In this document: positions 25,003 through 55,898 of the stretch, piece after piece
Numbering within the stretch: the stretch's first letter is position 1
How the letters are laid out: each line of letters starts with the position of its first letter
Assembly (NCBI GenBank): GCA_028867785.1
Contig: JAGWFS010000002.1
Span: 178,678 to 242,677, forward strand
Source: Nitrososphaerota archaeon
Lineage (GTDB): Archaea; Thermoproteota; Nitrososphaeria; Nitrososphaerales; Nitrosopumilaceae
DNA length: 64,000 nucleotides
Reading direction: 5' to 3'
The notes under the pieces: generated by a model
The model's input: only the letters and a program-made list of their open reading frames with translations
Database searches by the model: none
Told to the model about the DNA's origin: nothing
Position numbers and translations under genes: made by a program

Positions 25003-25023
25003 GCGTAGTGAAAGAAATTATGT

Positions 25024-25090
25024 GGCTATGGCATTAGCCTTGGGACAAAATTCCTAAACCGCCCCAGAAGGAGCTGATAATGTCTACCTA
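25024..25090 (+). ncRNA. Fluoride (crcB) riboswitch aptamer
   Basis: The sequence matches the crcB RNA core: GGCT (25024-25027) and AGCC (25036-25039) form the pseudoknot pair around ATGGCATT, whose GGCATT (25030-25035) pairs with AATGTC (25079-25084) as stem P1. AAACC then GCCCC/GGAGC (25061-25065 with 25070-25074) is the inner hairpin, followed by the conserved CTGAT. The same ATGGCATT, AAACCGC and AGCTGAT blocks occur in the well-known Pseudomonas syringae fluoride riboswitch (from memory). An extra small hairpin (GGGA, loop, TTCC at 25042-25054) is inserted between the pseudoknot strand and AAACC. It binds fluoride with Mg ions. Confidence 0.9.
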
Positions 25091-25111
25091 ATGAAAAATT
25101 AAGAGGTAGAC
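25082..25111 (+). promoter_or_regulatory. Riboswitch expression platform, SD-sequestering hairpin
   Basis: GTCTACCT (25082-25089) and AGGTAGAC (25104-25111) form a perfect 8-bp stem. The right arm contains the Shine-Dalgarno GAGGT (25103-25107), six bases before the ATG at 25114. The left arm uses GTC, also the 3' strand of aptamer stem P1. The two folds exclude each other, so fluoride binding should free the ribosome-binding site and turn translation on. Confidence 0.75.
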
Positions 25112-50590: not shown

Positions 50591-50932
50591 GTGCAAGAAT
50601 GCGATTTCTGCGGCTCTGATTTTGGAGACCACACGTGCTATTTCTGTGACAAACATTGCTGCAATTCTTGCATGACAAACGACAGGACACGTTGCAAGAA
50701 ATGCTATGTGGCAAAGCGCAAGCTTGGCTGGAGAATCTTCAAGAAAAACAAGGTGTTGCTTGGCTTTATCGGGTTTGTGTGGGCATATACTGTTTTTCCA
50801 GTGCCGCTGATCAAGGGAATTGACCCTACCTTCTACTGGGTGTGTTTTGGAGTGGCAATCATGATAATGATTCCAGTAGGTCTTGCAATGTTCTTCTGGT
50901 CAAGAGAGCCTCCAGCGTCAGACCTTAAATGA
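50591..50932 (+). CDS. Membrane protein with N-terminal double zinc-finger
   Basis: A 113-residue protein with GTG start. ECDFCGSDFGDHTCYFCDKHCCNSCM then TRCKKC gives eight or more cysteines in CxxC pairs, likely an AN1/B-box-like cross-brace on the inner side. Two hydrophobic helices follow (VLLGFIGFVWAYTVFPVPL and WVCFGVAIMIMIPVGLAMFFW). A membrane-bound zinc finger of unknown function; it converges on leuB with 8 bases overlap. Confidence 0.7.
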   Translation: MQECDFCGSDFGDHTCYFCDKHCCNSCMTNDRTRCKKCYVAKRKLGWRIFKKNKVLLGFIGFVWAYTVFPVPLIKGIDPTFYWVCFGVAIMIMIPVGLAMFFWSREPPASDLK

Positions 50933-51941
50933 CCTTTGAGATGACTTTCTGGGTGAACTCTCTTGTGGTATTGTTTCCGCCAATGTCCTTTGTCTTGATT
51001 CCGTCACTTACCACGCTGTAGACTGCCTCTTCTATCTTTTTTGCTATCTCAAGTGACCTGACATCATTATTTTTCATTGCCAGCCACTCAAACATCATTT
51101 TGGCAGACAGGATAAACGATGACGGGTTTGCGGCTTGTTTTCCTGCAATGTCAAATGCCGCCCCATGTACGGGTTCAAACAAGGCAAAATTTTCTCCAAT
51201 GTTGGCAGCTGGTGCCATCCCAAGTCCTCCAACTACCTGTGCTGCCTCGTCTGACAAGATGTCTCCAAACAAATTGGTTGTCACAATAACATCGAAAGAC
51301 TCGGGCTGCCTGATTAGGTTCATTGCGCACGCATCGACATACATCTGTTCAAATGCAATGTTGCCAAAATCTTCTGCCACCTGTGCACATGACCTAGAAA
51401 AAAGCCCGTCTGTCTTTCTCATGACGTTTGATTTGTGAACGCAGGTGACTTTTCTCTGCCTGTTTCTCTGAGTTGCTGTCATAAATGCATATTTTGCGAT
51501 GCGTTTTGACGCATGCTCTGATATGGTTCTTAGTGCAACTGCCGAATCTCCGACATCAAACTCCATTCCTGTGTAAAGGTCTTCCGTGTTCTCTCTTACT
51601 ATGACAAGGTCGATGTTTTCTTTGAGGACTGGCATGTTTGGATATGACTTGGCAGGCCTAATGTTTGCATAAAGATCTAGTGCTCTTCTTAGGAACACGA
51701 TGACGTCTGCTGCACTCTCGCCCACTGGTGCCTTGAGGCAGGCATCTGATTTTTTTATTGTATCAAGCGTAGAGTCTGGCATGGCCCTGCCAGTTTTTTT
51801 AAGAGCGTCATCTCCTGCTTCTACTGTGGTGATTTCTAGCTTTATTCCGGCCTTGTCATTTATTGCGTGTAATACATTTGTGACAGATTCCGACAGTTCA
51901 GGACCTATGCCGTCTCCTGTTATGAGCGCGACTTTGTACAT
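50925..51941 (-). CDS. leuB: 3-isopropylmalate dehydrogenase-type enzyme
   Basis: A 338-residue beta-decarboxylating dehydrogenase. ALITGDGIGPEL is the N-terminal nucleotide loop, LDLYANIRPAKSYPN the Arg-containing substrate site, LVIVRENTEDLYTGMEF and VHKSNVMRKTDGLF the catalytic Tyr/Lys region, and TNLFGDILSDEAAQVVGGLGMAPAANIG the Asp-metal and NAD site. Last gene of ilvB-ilvN-leuA-leuB, so leucine is the likely product. Isocitrate or homoisocitrate specificity cannot be ruled out from sequence alone. Confidence 0.88.
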   Translation of the reverse strand: MYKVALITGDGIGPELSESVTNVLHAINDKAGIKLEITTVEAGDDALKKTGRAMPDSTLDTIKKSDACLKAPVGESAADVIVFLRRALDLYANIRPAKSYPNMPVLKENIDLVIVRENTEDLYTGMEFDVGDSAVALRTISEHASKRIAKYAFMTATQRNRQRKVTCVHKSNVMRKTDGLFSRSCAQVAEDFGNIAFEQMYVDACAMNLIRQPESFDVIVTTNLFGDILSDEAAQVVGGLGMAPAANIGENFALFEPVHGAAFDIAGKQAANPSSFILSAKMMFEWLAMKNNDVRSLEIAKKIEEAVYSVVSDGIKTKDIGGNNTTREFTQKVISKVI

Positions 51942-53459
51942 CTAGAGTCCCAGGTTTTTTTGTTTGAGAATTTTTTTGAGCATGATTCTGTTTATACCGT
52001 CAATCATTGCCTGAACGCTTGTTATGACAATGTCCTCACCAATGGATTTTGCAGAGGCTTGGTTGCCATAGGAATCTTCCACCTTTATTGTCACTTCGCA
52101 CAAGGCCTCTGATCCGCCTGAAATGGAATCTAGTTTGTATTCTTTTATTCTTACCTTGGAAATTTCTCCTGTAATCTTTTGTATTGCATTAATTGATGCG
52201 TCTACGGGACCTACTCCATAGTCGGTACCTATGAAATCTTTTCCTTCTATGTTTAACTTGACAAACGCATACGGCATGTTGCCCATTCCGGTTGATACCG
52301 AAAATCCGGTCAAATGAACAAGCCTTCTCAAGCCTTCCTGATGCATGACCTCTCCAGTAATGGAGAGCAACTCAACATCTGTGACATGCTTTCCCTGGTC
52401 TCCGAGTTTTTTGACCTGTTCTAGTATCTCGTGTGTCTGCTCCTTTGACGGCTGGATGCCGTATTCCTCTAGCATGGCAGATATACCATGTGCCCCTGCG
52501 TGTTTTCCTACCTGGAACCACCTTGTTCTCCCAACAAGCTCAGGACTGATTGGCTCGTATGTGAGAGGGTTGTTCAAGACCCCATGCGTGTGAATTCCTG
52601 ACTCGTGTCCGAATGCATTTTCGCCAACTATTGCCTTGTTTGGCTGTACCTGGACTCCAACCACTTTGGAAACATATCTTGATGTTTCATAGAGGAGCTT
52701 GGAGTTGATGTTTGTCTCAAATTTGTTATCAAACTGTAAGCATTGTAGCGCCATGACAAACTCTTCAAGCGATGCATTGCCTGCCCTCTCTCCTATGCCG
52801 TTTATTGTGACATGTGCACACTGTGCCCCTGCCTGGATTCCAGATATTGCATTTGCTACTGCCAGCCCAAAATCATTGTGGCAGTGAACGCTTACAGGCA
52901 AATGGGTGGCGTCTATGGTATCCTTGGTTATTGCGGCAATGTACTGGGGTGTCGAATATCCAACTGTATCGGGTATGTCTATCCTGTCAGTTCCGGCGTC
53001 TGTGACCGCGCGAAAGACTTTTTTGAGAAATTCCCTGTCAGTTCTTGTAGCGTCTTCAGCGGAAAACTCCACCTGTAGTCCTCTGGACTTTGCATATTCT
53101 ACTGCTTCCACCGCCTTTGTAACTGCTTGTTCGCGTGTGAGATTGAGCTTGTACTTGAGATGAATGTCTGATGTTGCAATAAACGTGTGTATGTATTTCA
53201 ATCCGGAATCAACTGCTGCATCAATGTCTTTTTTCTCGGTTCTTGCCAATCCGCAAACCTCCGCTCGAAGTCCTGCATGTGCAATTTCTTTTACCGCTTT
53301 TTTTTCACCGTCTGAAATTATTGGAAATCCTGCCTCTATGGCGTCCACTCCAAGCTCGTCTAGCTTTTGGGCAATTGCAAGTTTCTGATCTGGTGTTAAC
53401 GCAATTCCAGGTGTTTGTTCCCCGTCTCTTAACGTGGTATCAAAAATTCTAACTTTCAT
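51942..53459 (-). CDS. leuA: 2-isopropylmalate synthase (LeuA) or citramalate synthase
   Basis: A 505-residue protein. DTTLRDGEQTPGIALTPDQKL is the DRE-TIM barrel start, VSVHCHNDFGLAVANAISGI holds the metal HxH site, and GERAGNASLEEFVMAL follows. Residues about 390-500 form the allosteric LeuA_dimer domain (GTDYGVGPVDASINAIQKI). Leucine feedback is thus likely. A citramalate synthase would look similar, so specificity is not certain. Start overlaps ilvN by 11 bases. Confidence 0.9.
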   Translation of the reverse strand: MKVRIFDTTLRDGEQTPGIALTPDQKLAIAQKLDELGVDAIEAGFPIISDGEKKAVKEIAHAGLRAEVCGLARTEKKDIDAAVDSGLKYIHTFIATSDIHLKYKLNLTREQAVTKAVEAVEYAKSRGLQVEFSAEDATRTDREFLKKVFRAVTDAGTDRIDIPDTVGYSTPQYIAAITKDTIDATHLPVSVHCHNDFGLAVANAISGIQAGAQCAHVTINGIGERAGNASLEEFVMALQCLQFDNKFETNINSKLLYETSRYVSKVVGVQVQPNKAIVGENAFGHESGIHTHGVLNNPLTYEPISPELVGRTRWFQVGKHAGAHGISAMLEEYGIQPSKEQTHEILEQVKKLGDQGKHVTDVELLSITGEVMHQEGLRRLVHLTGFSVSTGMGNMPYAFVKLNIEGKDFIGTDYGVGPVDASINAIQKITGEISKVRIKEYKLDSISGGSEALCEVTIKVEDSYGNQASAKSIGEDIVITSVQAMIDGINRIMLKKILKQKNLGL

Positions 53460-53946
53460 TGCCTACTCCTCGCTCTAATGCACAAATTCCAGTCCTTGTT
53501 ATCTCAAGTATGCCATATCCTCTCACGAGGTCCTCAAATGCGTTGATCCTGTCTGGTGTTGCCGTGATTTCCACAATTATTGAGGATTTTCTTACATCAT
53601 GAACATTGCACTTGAAAGCGTTCGCAAGATCTGTTATCTCCATGATATCTGACGGCTTGGTTATCTTTACCTTCATTAGTACCAGCTCGCGATATATGCT
53701 CTTTTTTTCCTCTAATAGTTTTACTTCTACAGTGTCTATCATCTTGTCAAGCTGTTTGATTATCTGGTTGAGTTGTTTCTCGTCTGCAGACGTCGTGATG
53801 GTCATCCTGGAAAATTCTGGATTCTCAGTTATCCCAACAGATATGCTGTCAATGTTATAGTTTCTTGACCTGAATAGATGTGTGACCTTGAACAAAACAC
53901 CGGGCTTGTTTTCTACTAGTACAGAAATTATTGACCACATGGGCAT
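53449..53946 (-). CDS. ilvN: Acetolactate synthase regulatory subunit
   Basis: A 165-residue protein. An N-terminal ACT domain (SIISVLVENKPGVLFKVTHLFRSRNYNIDSISVG) and an ALS_SS C-terminal domain (ELVLMKVKI, DIMEITDLANAFKCNVHDV). It gives valine-sensitive control of IlvB. Three bases separate it from ilvB. Confidence 0.94.
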   Translation of the reverse strand: MPMWSIISVLVENKPGVLFKVTHLFRSRNYNIDSISVGITENPEFSRMTITTSADEKQLNQIIKQLDKMIDTVEVKLLEEKKSIYRELVLMKVKITKPSDIMEITDLANAFKCNVHDVRKSSIIVEITATPDRINAFEDLVRGYGILEITRTGICALERGVGNES

Positions 53947-53949
53947 TCA

Positions 53950-55638
53950 CTATGATGGTAAGATCATGTCCTTTAGTGGTGTTCCTGGGGCCACAAATGG
54001 CAAGACGTCTTCTTGTGGGTCGATTGGGATGTCTATGACCGTAGCTATGTTGCTTTTGAGCGCAGTCTGCACTGCCTTTCCAATCTCGTCTATGCTTTCT
54101 GCTCTTATGCCTTGGGCACCATATGATTCTGCTAGTTTTACATAGTCTGGGCAATTCTTGAGGTCTATTCCAATCATGCGCCTGTCGTAGAATGTTCTCT
54201 GCCACTGTGCAACCATGCCGAGTGAAAAGTTGTTCAATAGGAATACAATGACTGGCAAGTCATCTAGCACTGATACAGCAAGCGAGTTCTCTGTCATGTT
54301 AAAGCTGCCTTCTCCTGCAATGTCGACTACTGGAACATCAGGCCTTGCAGCCTTGGCTCCTATTGCTGCTGGAAATCCCCACCCCATGGTGCCAAGACCG
54401 GTGGAACTAAAGAAAGTACCAGGATGTATCACATCAAAGAACAGTGATGCCCACATCTGGTGCTGGCCCACCTCTGTCGTTACAATTGACTGTGCAGGGA
54501 GGACCTCTCTTAGTTTTCTTAGTACTTTGGCAGCACCTAACGGGTGCGGATGAAGTTTTAGGCTTTGTCTAAAGTATTCTCTTGTCTCATTTACTCGCTT
54601 TATCCATGGGTTGTCTCCGTTCTTCTTGGCGGCCTTTTGGATTAGCATCTTTACCATGGTTCTAAGCGATGCCTTGAGGTCTCCTACTACTGCCACATGT
54701 GTTGTCTGGTTCTTTCCTATCTCTGCCGGGTCTACATCCATGTGTATTATCTTGAGGTTCTTTTCAAATTCCTCAAATGTCCCAACCGACCTGTCTGAAA
54801 ACCTTGAACCACATGCAAGCACACAATCGGCTTCCACCATTATCTTGTTAGCTTCTGCATGTCCGTGCATTCCTATAGGTCCTAGCGAAAGTGGGTGGTT
54901 TTCAGGAAATGCACCTTTTCCTTTGAATGTTGTCACGACTGGAATCATTAGCAGTTCTGCAATCGACTGAAGCTCTGCAAACGCGCTTGAGATTATCACT
55001 CCCCCTCCTGCCAAGATGACTGGCCTCTCAGAGGATAGCAGCATGTCTATTGCACGTTCTATTTTCCCAATGTCTGGGTCTATCCAAGGATGATACCCCC
55101 TGATCTTTACCTCTGTTGGAAAAATCATCTCCGCTTCGTTTTGCTGCACGTCCTTTGGAATGTCAATTAGTACGGGGCCTGGCCTGCCTGTTGCAGATAT
55201 GTAAAACGCCTTTTTTACCACCTCTGGAATTTCTGAAGCAGTCATGGGCTGAAATGCATATTTCACTATTGGATTTGTAATTCCAATTATGTCGCTTTCC
55301 TGAAAAGCATCCCTCCCAATCATTTTTGTCTGTACCTGTCCGGTAATGGCAATCATTGGGGCAGAGTCTGCCTGCGCGGTTGCAATTCCAGTCACAATGT
55401 TTGTTGCTCCAGGACCGGAGGTAGCAAAGCACACTCCTGGTCGCCTGCTTACTCTCCCAAAACCGTCTGCCATATGTGACGCAGACTGTTCATGTCTGAC
55501 AAGTATGTGTCTGATGTTGCTCTTGTAAAGCTCATCATAAATCGGAAGGTTTGCCCCTCCGGGAAGTCCGAAGACTATGTTTGCACCCTCTTTCTCTAGG
55601 GCAACCATTAAAGATCTAGCACCTGACATTTTTTCCAT
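53950..55638 (-). CDS. ilvB: Acetolactate synthase catalytic subunit
   Basis: About 562 residues from ATG 55638, which has a Shine-Dalgarno GGAG (55651-55648) nine bases upstream; TTG 55653 and ATG 55630 are also in frame. A ThDP enzyme: GANIVFGLPGGANLPIYDEL with the catalytic Glu region in RHEQSASHMADGFGRVS, then TSGPGATN, DVQQNEAE, and GEGSFNMTENSLAV with FLLNNFSLGMVAQWQ (the ThDP-Mg site). It condenses pyruvate for Val and Leu, or pyruvate with 2-oxobutyrate for Ile. An SD-led start is unlike the leaderless neighbours and fits the leader RNA upstream. Confidence 0.95.
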   Translation of the reverse strand: MEKMSGARSLMVALEKEGANIVFGLPGGANLPIYDELYKSNIRHILVRHEQSASHMADGFGRVSRRPGVCFATSGPGATNIVTGIATAQADSAPMIAITGQVQTKMIGRDAFQESDIIGITNPIVKYAFQPMTASEIPEVVKKAFYISATGRPGPVLIDIPKDVQQNEAEMIFPTEVKIRGYHPWIDPDIGKIERAIDMLLSSERPVILAGGGVIISSAFAELQSIAELLMIPVVTTFKGKGAFPENHPLSLGPIGMHGHAEANKIMVEADCVLACGSRFSDRSVGTFEEFEKNLKIIHMDVDPAEIGKNQTTHVAVVGDLKASLRTMVKMLIQKAAKKNGDNPWIKRVNETREYFRQSLKLHPHPLGAAKVLRKLREVLPAQSIVTTEVGQHQMWASLFFDVIHPGTFFSSTGLGTMGWGFPAAIGAKAARPDVPVVDIAGEGSFNMTENSLAVSVLDDLPVIVFLLNNFSLGMVAQWQRTFYDRRMIGIDLKNCPDYVKLAESYGAQGIRAESIDEIGKAVQTALKSNIATVIDIPIDPQEDVLPFVAPGTPLKDMILPS

Positions 55639-55647
55639 AATTTTTAA

Positions 55648-55651
55648 CTCC
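55648..55651 (-). promoter_or_regulatory. Shine-Dalgarno of ilvB
   Basis: GGAG on the minus strand, nine bases before ATG 55638. It shows that ilvB is translated by internal initiation from a longer leader RNA, and favours ATG 55638 over the TTG that overlaps it. Confidence 0.55.
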
Positions 55652-55658
55652 AAACAAT

Positions 55659-55693
55659 TGCTGTAGTCTACAGCAGAGGGTCGACTAGCAGCA
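55659..55693 (-). promoter_or_regulatory. Alternative stem-loops in the ilvB leader RNA
   Basis: Three segments: A (TGCTGCTAGTC, 55693-55683, the Leu-Leu-Val codons), B (TGCTGTA, 55675-55669, Leu-Leu and start of the stop codon) and C (GACTACAGCA, 55668-55659). B pairs with C in a 7-bp stem with a 3-base loop. A pairs with C in a 10-bp stem with one bulged base. The two cannot form together, and a ribosome on the Ile/Leu/Val codons would hide A. This is the logic of an attenuator. Confidence 0.5.
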
Positions 55694-55730
55694 GAATACC
55701 AGAAATGCTTGCCGAGCCTCCTAACTTCAT
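55668..55730 (-). CDS. Candidate branched-chain amino acid leader peptide
   Basis: A 20-codon ORF, ATG 55730 to TAG 55668, on the ilvB strand. The peptide contains GILLLVDPLL at its end: in total six Leu, two Ile and one Val among 20 residues, with Ile-Leu-Leu-Leu-Val in a row. It ends 30 bases before the ilvB ATG. The ATG is about 26-34 bases from a TATA box, so it could be the first, leaderless ORF of the transcript. This recalls ilvL/leuL of bacteria, where stalling at these codons controls the operon. Conservation was not tested. Confidence 0.55.
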   Translation of the reverse strand: MKLGGSASISGILLLVDPLL

Positions 55731-55755
55731 TTTAGTCTATGAGTTTTGCGTCGGA

Positions 55756-55770
55756 TATAATTTATAAATA
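55756..55770 (-). promoter_or_regulatory. TATA region of the ilv-leu operon
   Basis: Read on the minus strand, TATTTATAAATTATA gives overlapping TATA elements centred near 55764 and 55757. Start points about 26 bases on would be 55738 to 55731, next to the leader-peptide ATG at 55730. Confidence 0.5.
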
Positions 55771-55898
55771 TTGCTGGAGAAAATGAACAAATTAGTAAAA
55801 AGGACGTCTGTACTCTGCGAATATTTCAACACTAGAGCGCCTTTTCCTTCCAGTCTTTCACAAGACTTAAACTAGAACTATCTGAAGCAATAGCGATT

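Follow-up and report, generated by a model that had tools for sequence, protein, structure and literature searches.

Introduction

Leader-peptide attenuation is a textbook mechanism of bacterial gene control. In the enterobacterial ilvBN, ilvGMEDA and leu attenuators segment 1 of the leader holds the regulatory codons and the 3:4 helix is an intrinsic terminator; the archaeal leader described here shares the signal and the pathway with them, but its regulatory codons belong to the first stem's 3' arm, and no strong terminator was seen. As far as the available text of a 2010 survey goes, attenuation had been recorded from Proteobacteria and Actinobacteria alone, with Firmicutes as a new addition (PMC2965389).

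Judged from the accessible portions of its descriptions, the known element that comes nearest is the Corynebacterium ilvBNC leader (ilvBNC attenuator/ilvB-II motif), which likewise places a short Leu/Ile/Val-rich leader ORF before ilvB (PMC11857589, PMC10272879). Leaderless translation of the leader is discussed there as well, and several hairpins are described, one of which blocks the initiation of the leader itself (PMC11857589). However, the host is bacterial, the proven terminator of C. glutamicum has no counterpart in the archaeal leader, and neither the overlap of antiterminator and terminator nor an Rfam match was seen in the latter. The ilvB-OMG and Leptospira ilvB motifs, so far as the available sections of PMC10272879 outline them, are also structured RNAs in which a putative uORF rich in Ile/Leu/Val precedes ilvB, but these are bacterial too, and the archaeal leader is without an Rfam match. 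Among archaea, Haloferax volcanii and Methanosarcina mazei are documented to carry short ORFs before genes in long 5' UTRs, although in the accessible parts of those reports they are not linked to cognate amino-acid codons or to attenuation (PMC4983044, PMC11456600). An archaeal leader-peptide attenuator was not found in the part of the literature covered by an open-access library.

The comparison of ilvB upstream regions presented here makes it fairly probable that a near-leaderless leader peptide, acting through the ribosome and sensing branched-chain amino acids, controls ilvB throughout the class Nitrososphaeria, the ammonia-oxidising archaea and their relatives. To our knowledge this would be the first case of leader-peptide attenuation at a biosynthetic operon of archaea. 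Its core, the ORF with a post-stop helix, would be kept while the helices are rebuilt by lineage, and its output would do without both a terminator of the bacterial type and a masked ribosome site. If this is true, archaea read their amino-acid supply by translating a leader, class-wide, and the locus offers a natural, testable system for archaeal transcription-translation coupling, with a bearing on the control of amino-acid synthesis in abundant marine and soil archaea.

Results and discussion

The ilvB operon and its leader

The DNA that was analysed (the window) is a stretch of 64,000 nt from a Nitrososphaerota archaeon. On its minus strand the leader ORF MKLGGSASISGILLLVDPLL occupies 55668-55730; it has 20 codons and a TAG stop, and is recognised by its translation and by its conservation as an Ile/Leu/Val-rich ORF. 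The first gene downstream, 29 nt from leader stop to ATG, is ilvB for the large subunit of acetolactate synthase (53950-55638, minus strand, ATG at 55638, 562 aa), whose function is assigned by resemblance and which has close relatives across the whole family. It is followed on the same strand by an ilvN-like small subunit (53449-53946, 165 aa), a leuA/cimA-like synthase (51942-53459, 505 aa) and a leuB-like dehydrogenase (50925-51941, 338 aa), all three named from reading their translations. The sequence GGAG at 55648-55651 (minus strand) is the Shine-Dalgarno of ilvB. This site, the leader codons and the pairing segments A, B and C discussed below were all found where the original prediction had placed them.

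The host is a Nitrosotalea-like ammonia-oxidising archaeon, since the leader of G008, a genome of the window's genus, is identical to that of Candidatus Nitrosotalea devanaterra (L034). Rare codons were not seen in the leader when its codon use was checked. A Shine-Dalgarno-like AGGAGG lies just within the leader ORF, in codons 3-5 (55722-55717, minus strand); it is retained in one part of the window's genus and missing from the other.

Comparative analysis of the leader ORF

Altogether 150 ilvB upstream regions were read, 130 from the family and a further 20 from the rest of the class. The family sample comes from 143 genomes with a match, one of which gave two regions, while incomplete or near-identical others were left out. 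In the strict test an ORF that starts with ATG, has 9 codons or more and ends 15-130 nt before ilvB was scored by the number of Ile, Leu and Val among its last 10 codons. The outside-family set used for the folding z, the ribosome models and the T-run, frame and TATA counts consisted of 15 of the 20 regions, in which G174 and G173 (score 4) were taken instead of G172 and G176 (score 5, doubtful ORF).

A score of at least 6 was reached in 112/150 regions and at least 7 in 91/150. Dinucleotide shuffles of the 150 regions gave a mean of 5.0 (maximum 11) and 1.1 (maximum 4) at these thresholds, and the reverse strand of the same regions 9 and 1, respectively. Before 238 other long ORFs of the same loci the strict test found 8 scores of at least 6 and 1 of at least 7. 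The leader ORF reaches a score of 6 in 100 of the 130 family regions and in 12 of the 20 outside the family, and as leaders share descent and such counts inflate the number of independent cases, it is fairer to count 16 of the 22 genera in the family and, beyond it, at least five further families (f3, f5, f6, f8, f9). It is missing or doubtful in genera g2, g5, g7, g10 and g16 by strict scan and reading of the regions, all three regions of g15 score only 5, and 8 of the 20 outside regions stay under the threshold. T-rich upstream DNA could by chance yield Leu/Ile/Val-like codons devoid of function, and a relaxed scan (420 nt, last 12 codons) does find such ORFs elsewhere, for instance in 7/18 thrC regions; against the strict counts before ilvB, before other genes and in shuffles, the probability left to this explanation is practically negligible.

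When other amino-acid sets with 12-14 codons were put in place of Ile/Leu/Val, the best of 60 random sets reached 6 of 10 in at most 3/150 regions. This bears on constitutive translational coupling, according to which the leader merely supplies ribosomes that re-initiate on ilvB and so increase its translation, with no sensing of amino acids. The short distance from leader stop to ilvB start (median 51.5 nt across the regions, roughly 26-32 nt for the genus of the window) suits such a role, and bacterial leader genes are proposed, in the available part of PMC4833913, to boost expression via re-initiation; yet coupling leaves an Ile/Leu/Val enrichment at an Ile/Leu/Val operon unexplained, and we consider it unlikely.

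In 111 distinct regions Ile, Leu and Val account for 0.68 of the last 10 codons when these are read in frame vs 0.22 and 0.10 in the other two frames. Among the nearest genera pN/pS was 0.66 in frame vs 0.58 in frame +1, so that this measure did not single out the coding frame in the window's nearest relatives. Taken over the class, the comparisons argue that the leader ORF of the window is real.

The peptides themselves drift: the variants inside and outside the family include ILLLVDPLL, ILLLVDLML, LSIVLLVVLVL, KKLPVVILL, FLLVVLL, LFLLVVLL, KVKILVLLLLA, SVALIVLLIVV and VILLIIV, in which the residues change between genera and the Ile/Leu/Val content is kept. A drifting sequence with constant Ile/Leu/Val content is what codon sensing would predict, and is expected neither of a functional protein nor of an arrest peptide. 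A nascent-chain arrest peptide, which would itself stall the ribosome upon a metabolite, could point to the motif (I/V)LLLV(D/E)L(V/M/L)L, well conserved across many genera; but part of this conservation of letters is accounted for by stem 1:2 (see below), and g3, g11, g22 and the regions outside the family swap residues freely among Ile, Leu and Val. The conserved peptide sequence expected of an arrest peptide was not found, the C-terminus varying among Ile, Leu and Val between genera, and this explanation is, in our view, quite improbable. Sensing of Leu/Ile/Val by the leader is, by contrast with these alternatives, well supported as a reading of the compared sequences.

Promoter and start of the leader

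A TATA-like box, TTTATAAA, lies at 55761-55768 (minus strand), assigned by sequence and positional conservation. An archaeal TATA box stands, as a rule, about 26 nt from the transcription start, and the start is predicted here roughly 5-12 nt upstream of the leader ATG. A TTTATW box was found 19-60 nt 5' of the leader ATG in 111/128 regions vs 3/128 in a control window. The fixed distance between box and ATG ties the leader to its promoter, and translation of the leader is therefore probably near-leaderless, starting close to the 5' end of the RNA.

Stems in the window's genus and its relatives

Two alignments were folded, A1 with the complete set of 30 distinct leaders from g1, g6, g8, g21 and g9 (the window's genus and four related ones) and A2 with all 14 distinct leaders of g17, a genus in which G131 has the same leader as the Nitrosotenuis record L037. 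Given no structure, RNAalifold found the same two hairpins, 1:2 and 3:4, in both. Stem 1:2 joins codons 5-8 with the Leu-Leu-Val-Asp codons: its 5' arm, segment 1, covers 55707-55715 (codons 6-8) and extends to 55716-55718 via a bulge or a register shift, and its 3' arm, segment 2, lies at 55681-55689, overlapping segment A. Stem 3:4 is the stop hairpin, in which segment 3 (55669-55675, identical with B) contains the last Leu codons and the first two letters of the stop, and segment 4 (55659-55665) is the core of C (55668-55659); all of these arms are on the minus strand. The 7-bp B:C hairpin with the loop GAC, foreseen in the original prediction, is thus a conserved element that was recovered unprompted, and in the 30 sequences of A1 it is paired in 89.4% of cells.

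The original prediction had gone further and proposed that segment C switches between segment A (55683-55693, minus strand) and segment B in mutually exclusive stems. Both pairings can indeed be drawn in the window, A:C with 10 bp and one bulge at the predicted place, and B:C is conserved; the A:C half of the proposal did not hold. In arm-swap tests (family leaders only, identical arms removed, 2000 permutations) swapping the arms of A:C had no effect (983 and 935 of 2000 permutations in the five-genus set and with g17, respectively), its z averaged over genera against shuffled arms was 0.05 (130 regions scoring 5 or more, 115 from the family and 15 from outside), and its outer pairs are broken in most relatives. 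A:C as an alternative stem was rejected on these grounds, and a switch of C between A and B, which has no A:C signal in any genus set, is very improbable. The A:C pairing is best read as a likely by-product of repeated Leu-Leu codons, A resembling B because both consist of Leu-Leu codons followed by UAG-like letters.

For stem 1:2 own arms paired better than swapped ones, with -16.3 vs -15.3 kcal/mol in the five-genus set and -17.1 vs -15.2 kcal/mol when g17 was included (0/2000 in both), and its genus-averaged z was -1.32. The arms of 3:4 could be swapped with little consequence (696/2000 in the five-genus set, 90/2000 in the six-genus set, z -0.57); in g19, g12 and g20 together the figure was 9/2000. 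By the arm-swap evidence stem 1:2, which the original prediction lacks, covaries, and the real partner of A is segment 1 upstream of it; B:C is conserved but shows only weak covariation. Two-sided compensatory changes were found at 0 pairs in A1 or A2, where changes are one-sided only. Compensatory changes between homologues had been named as the check on the predicted stems: there are none for A:C and practically none for B:C among the near relatives, and they are present in the equivalent stem of the marine relatives.

Folded alone the leader of the window is unremarkable (z -0.98; 33 of 200 shuffles as stable or more stable), and over 124 leaders, G060 left out, the mean z was -0.94 for the stop-proximal region and -1.27 for the whole leader. 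One leader, L215 of genome G190, has an exceptionally long 1:2 stem of about 16 bp, the ORF pairing on itself.

The helix of the marine relatives

In the marine genera g3, g4, g11, g14 and g22 the segment behind the stop pairs with the start of the leader, as TGAGCACA with TGTGCTCA or TGTGTGTG with CACACTCA. Over 38 leaders this stem of 5' end and post-stop segment reached -9.17 kcal/mol with own arms vs -6.29 with swapped ones (0/2000); by genus, g11 alone gave 0/2000 and g14 alone 224/2000. A gapless count on 36 leaders of g4, g11 and g14 gave 6.39 of 8 pairs with own vs 6.09 with swapped arms (0/1000). The alignment A3 comprises 28 of the 38 distinct marine leaders, partly picked by eye, and RNAalifold found no structure on A3 alone; it was the arm tests that revealed the stem, which was then scored on A3 as a specified structure. 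So scored, 5 of its 8 pairs have two-sided changes (13 cells vs 4.9 expected) and its covariation score is 0.236 vs 0.169 (sd 0.015; 0/500). When the partner was slid by +2 columns 70% was still paired, therefore part of the signal comes from repetitive sequence.

Regions outside the family have post-stop hairpins of different sequence, for example GGACCCCT...AGGGGTCC in G156 and GCCCC...GGGGC in G151.

An additional element was noticed in the marine leaders. TTAAAATTATGG, located between the leader stem and the ilvB start, is invariant in 28/28 marine leaders of A3 (e.g. L148, L164, L130). It is mostly non-coding, and a similar CACTTAAAATTA precedes ilvB in several genomes without the leader; these sequences are possibly a second promoter or some other element.

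Ribosome position and a probable mechanism

Considering these results together, the element consists of an ORF, about 20 codons long and set at a constant distance from its promoter, and of a conserved helix whose 3' strand follows the stop directly. Sensing of the Leu/Ile/Val supply by ribosome position, in cis, before the archaeal ilvB operon is what we hold to be likely from the DNA comparisons. The ribosome would initiate near-leaderless on the leader and, with charged Leu, Ile or Val tRNAs scarce, slow down on the Leu/Ile/Val run; its position would then select among the leader helices. On the run it would break stem 1:2 and leave the post-stop helix (3:4 in the window, 5' end with post-stop segment in the marine relatives) free, and on arriving at the stop it would open that helix. 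If the sign is the usual one and shortage activates the pathway, the ON state would include the post-stop helix. Certainty is lowest for the last step of the model.

The geometry was followed in fold models in which the ribosome was a 30-nt unpaired block. Mean accessibility of the post-stop region was 0.34 without a ribosome, 0.34 with the ribosome at the 7th and 0.38 at the 4th codon before the stop; with the ribosome at the stop it rose to 0.75, partly since the block itself covers the region. Only the ribosome at the stop opened the post-stop region in these models. This agrees with the earlier expectation that a ribosome stalled upstream permits B:C and one at the stop covers B.

The opposite wiring may be nested in the same mechanism: the post-stop helix would be the OFF state, formed after a fast ribosome has left the stop, and a stall on the last codons would block it sterically. 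The front of a ribosome stalled on the last codons would reach the post-stop arm, and several lineages carry Ile/Leu/Val to the last codon of the ORF (VVILL, LIVV, LIIV). In the window, however, the Leu-Leu-Leu-Val run is located 5-8 codons upstream of the leader stop, and in the models a ribosome at either of the two positions ahead of the stop opens the post-stop region little, if at all. We regard this wiring as a possible variant to which we do not incline, and keep the post-stop helix tentatively in the ON state.

Concerning the output, the original prediction had noted the lack of a long U-run after the hairpin and had suggested control through the ilvB Shine-Dalgarno instead. The first point was borne out, the window having no T-run longer than 3 from leader stop to ilvB. 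The second found no support in the fold models: accessibility of the ilvB Shine-Dalgarno and start was 0.49-0.50 in every state and changed by at most 0.006 on average, and the model of masking at this site was set aside. The feature of the erm/cat type, a leader helix that masks the Shine-Dalgarno and is displaced by a stall, was not found in the fold models, and an intrinsic terminator of the trp/ilv type (hairpin plus long U-run) was not found before ilvB. Between leader stop and ilvB, runs of at least four T are enriched (67/114 regions vs 34.9 expected from mononucleotide shuffles) and runs of at least six are not (3 vs 3.7 expected, 114 regions), therefore a bacterial-type terminator is absent.

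The leader has the ORF enriched in codons for the products of the pathway and conserved helices that overlap or abut this ORF (1:2, the stop hairpin and the marine stem). It would thus work like a leader-peptide attenuator, and it is classed neither as a trp-type transcription attenuator nor as an erm-type translational attenuator, since the output features of both types were looked for and not found. According to the available portion of PMC11616081, factor-dependent termination in archaea has a preference for U-rich RNA. FttA is proposed there to monitor transcription-translation coupling, its link to termination still being a hypothesis. We infer that termination by FttA at U-rich RNA could be a route for the ilvB leader that needs no hairpin terminator. 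Regarding the level of the output, we find it slightly more likely that transcription past the leader is controlled than that the ilvB ribosome site is masked.

Search for related leaders and other elements

Corresponding Trp, His, Phe and Thr leaders were looked for before trpE, hisG, PDT and thrC, and none was convincing; the hisG scan covered the region behind a hisD-like ORF and not the true head of the operon. A mini-ORF at trpE, MGGHIWAFKP, was considered as a Trp leader and discarded, as it overlaps the trpE start in another frame. The 22 ilvC regions contained few, weak ORFs, no better than relaxed controls. A comparable leader was found in none of the 5 Methanosarcinaceae loci (of 16 loci scanned) and was absent from most of 20 other Thermoproteota regions.

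Two short ORFs were observed in more distant Thermoproteota sets. In L282 and L283 (genomes G239 and G253, one genus outside the class) a Val/Ile-ending ORF stands before ilvB (SLVIVVILK, SVNVVILK) together with a long hairpin, AAGCGCCTTAAG...CTTAAGGCGCTT; perhaps this is the same kind of leader further afield. L294 and L297 (G240 and G247, one other Thermoproteota family) have a mini-ORF in common, MMGGYTLQVE or MIGGYTLQV, about 100-125 nt upstream of ilvB.

In the region 55600-55850 no Rfam covariance model, those of the T-box and the ilvB motifs included, matched at E values up to 10, and 20 relatives gave three hits, all far under the gathering score. The only Rfam hit of the window at gathering score is a fluoride riboswitch (RF01734) at 25015-25093 on the plus strand, with 40.9 bits.
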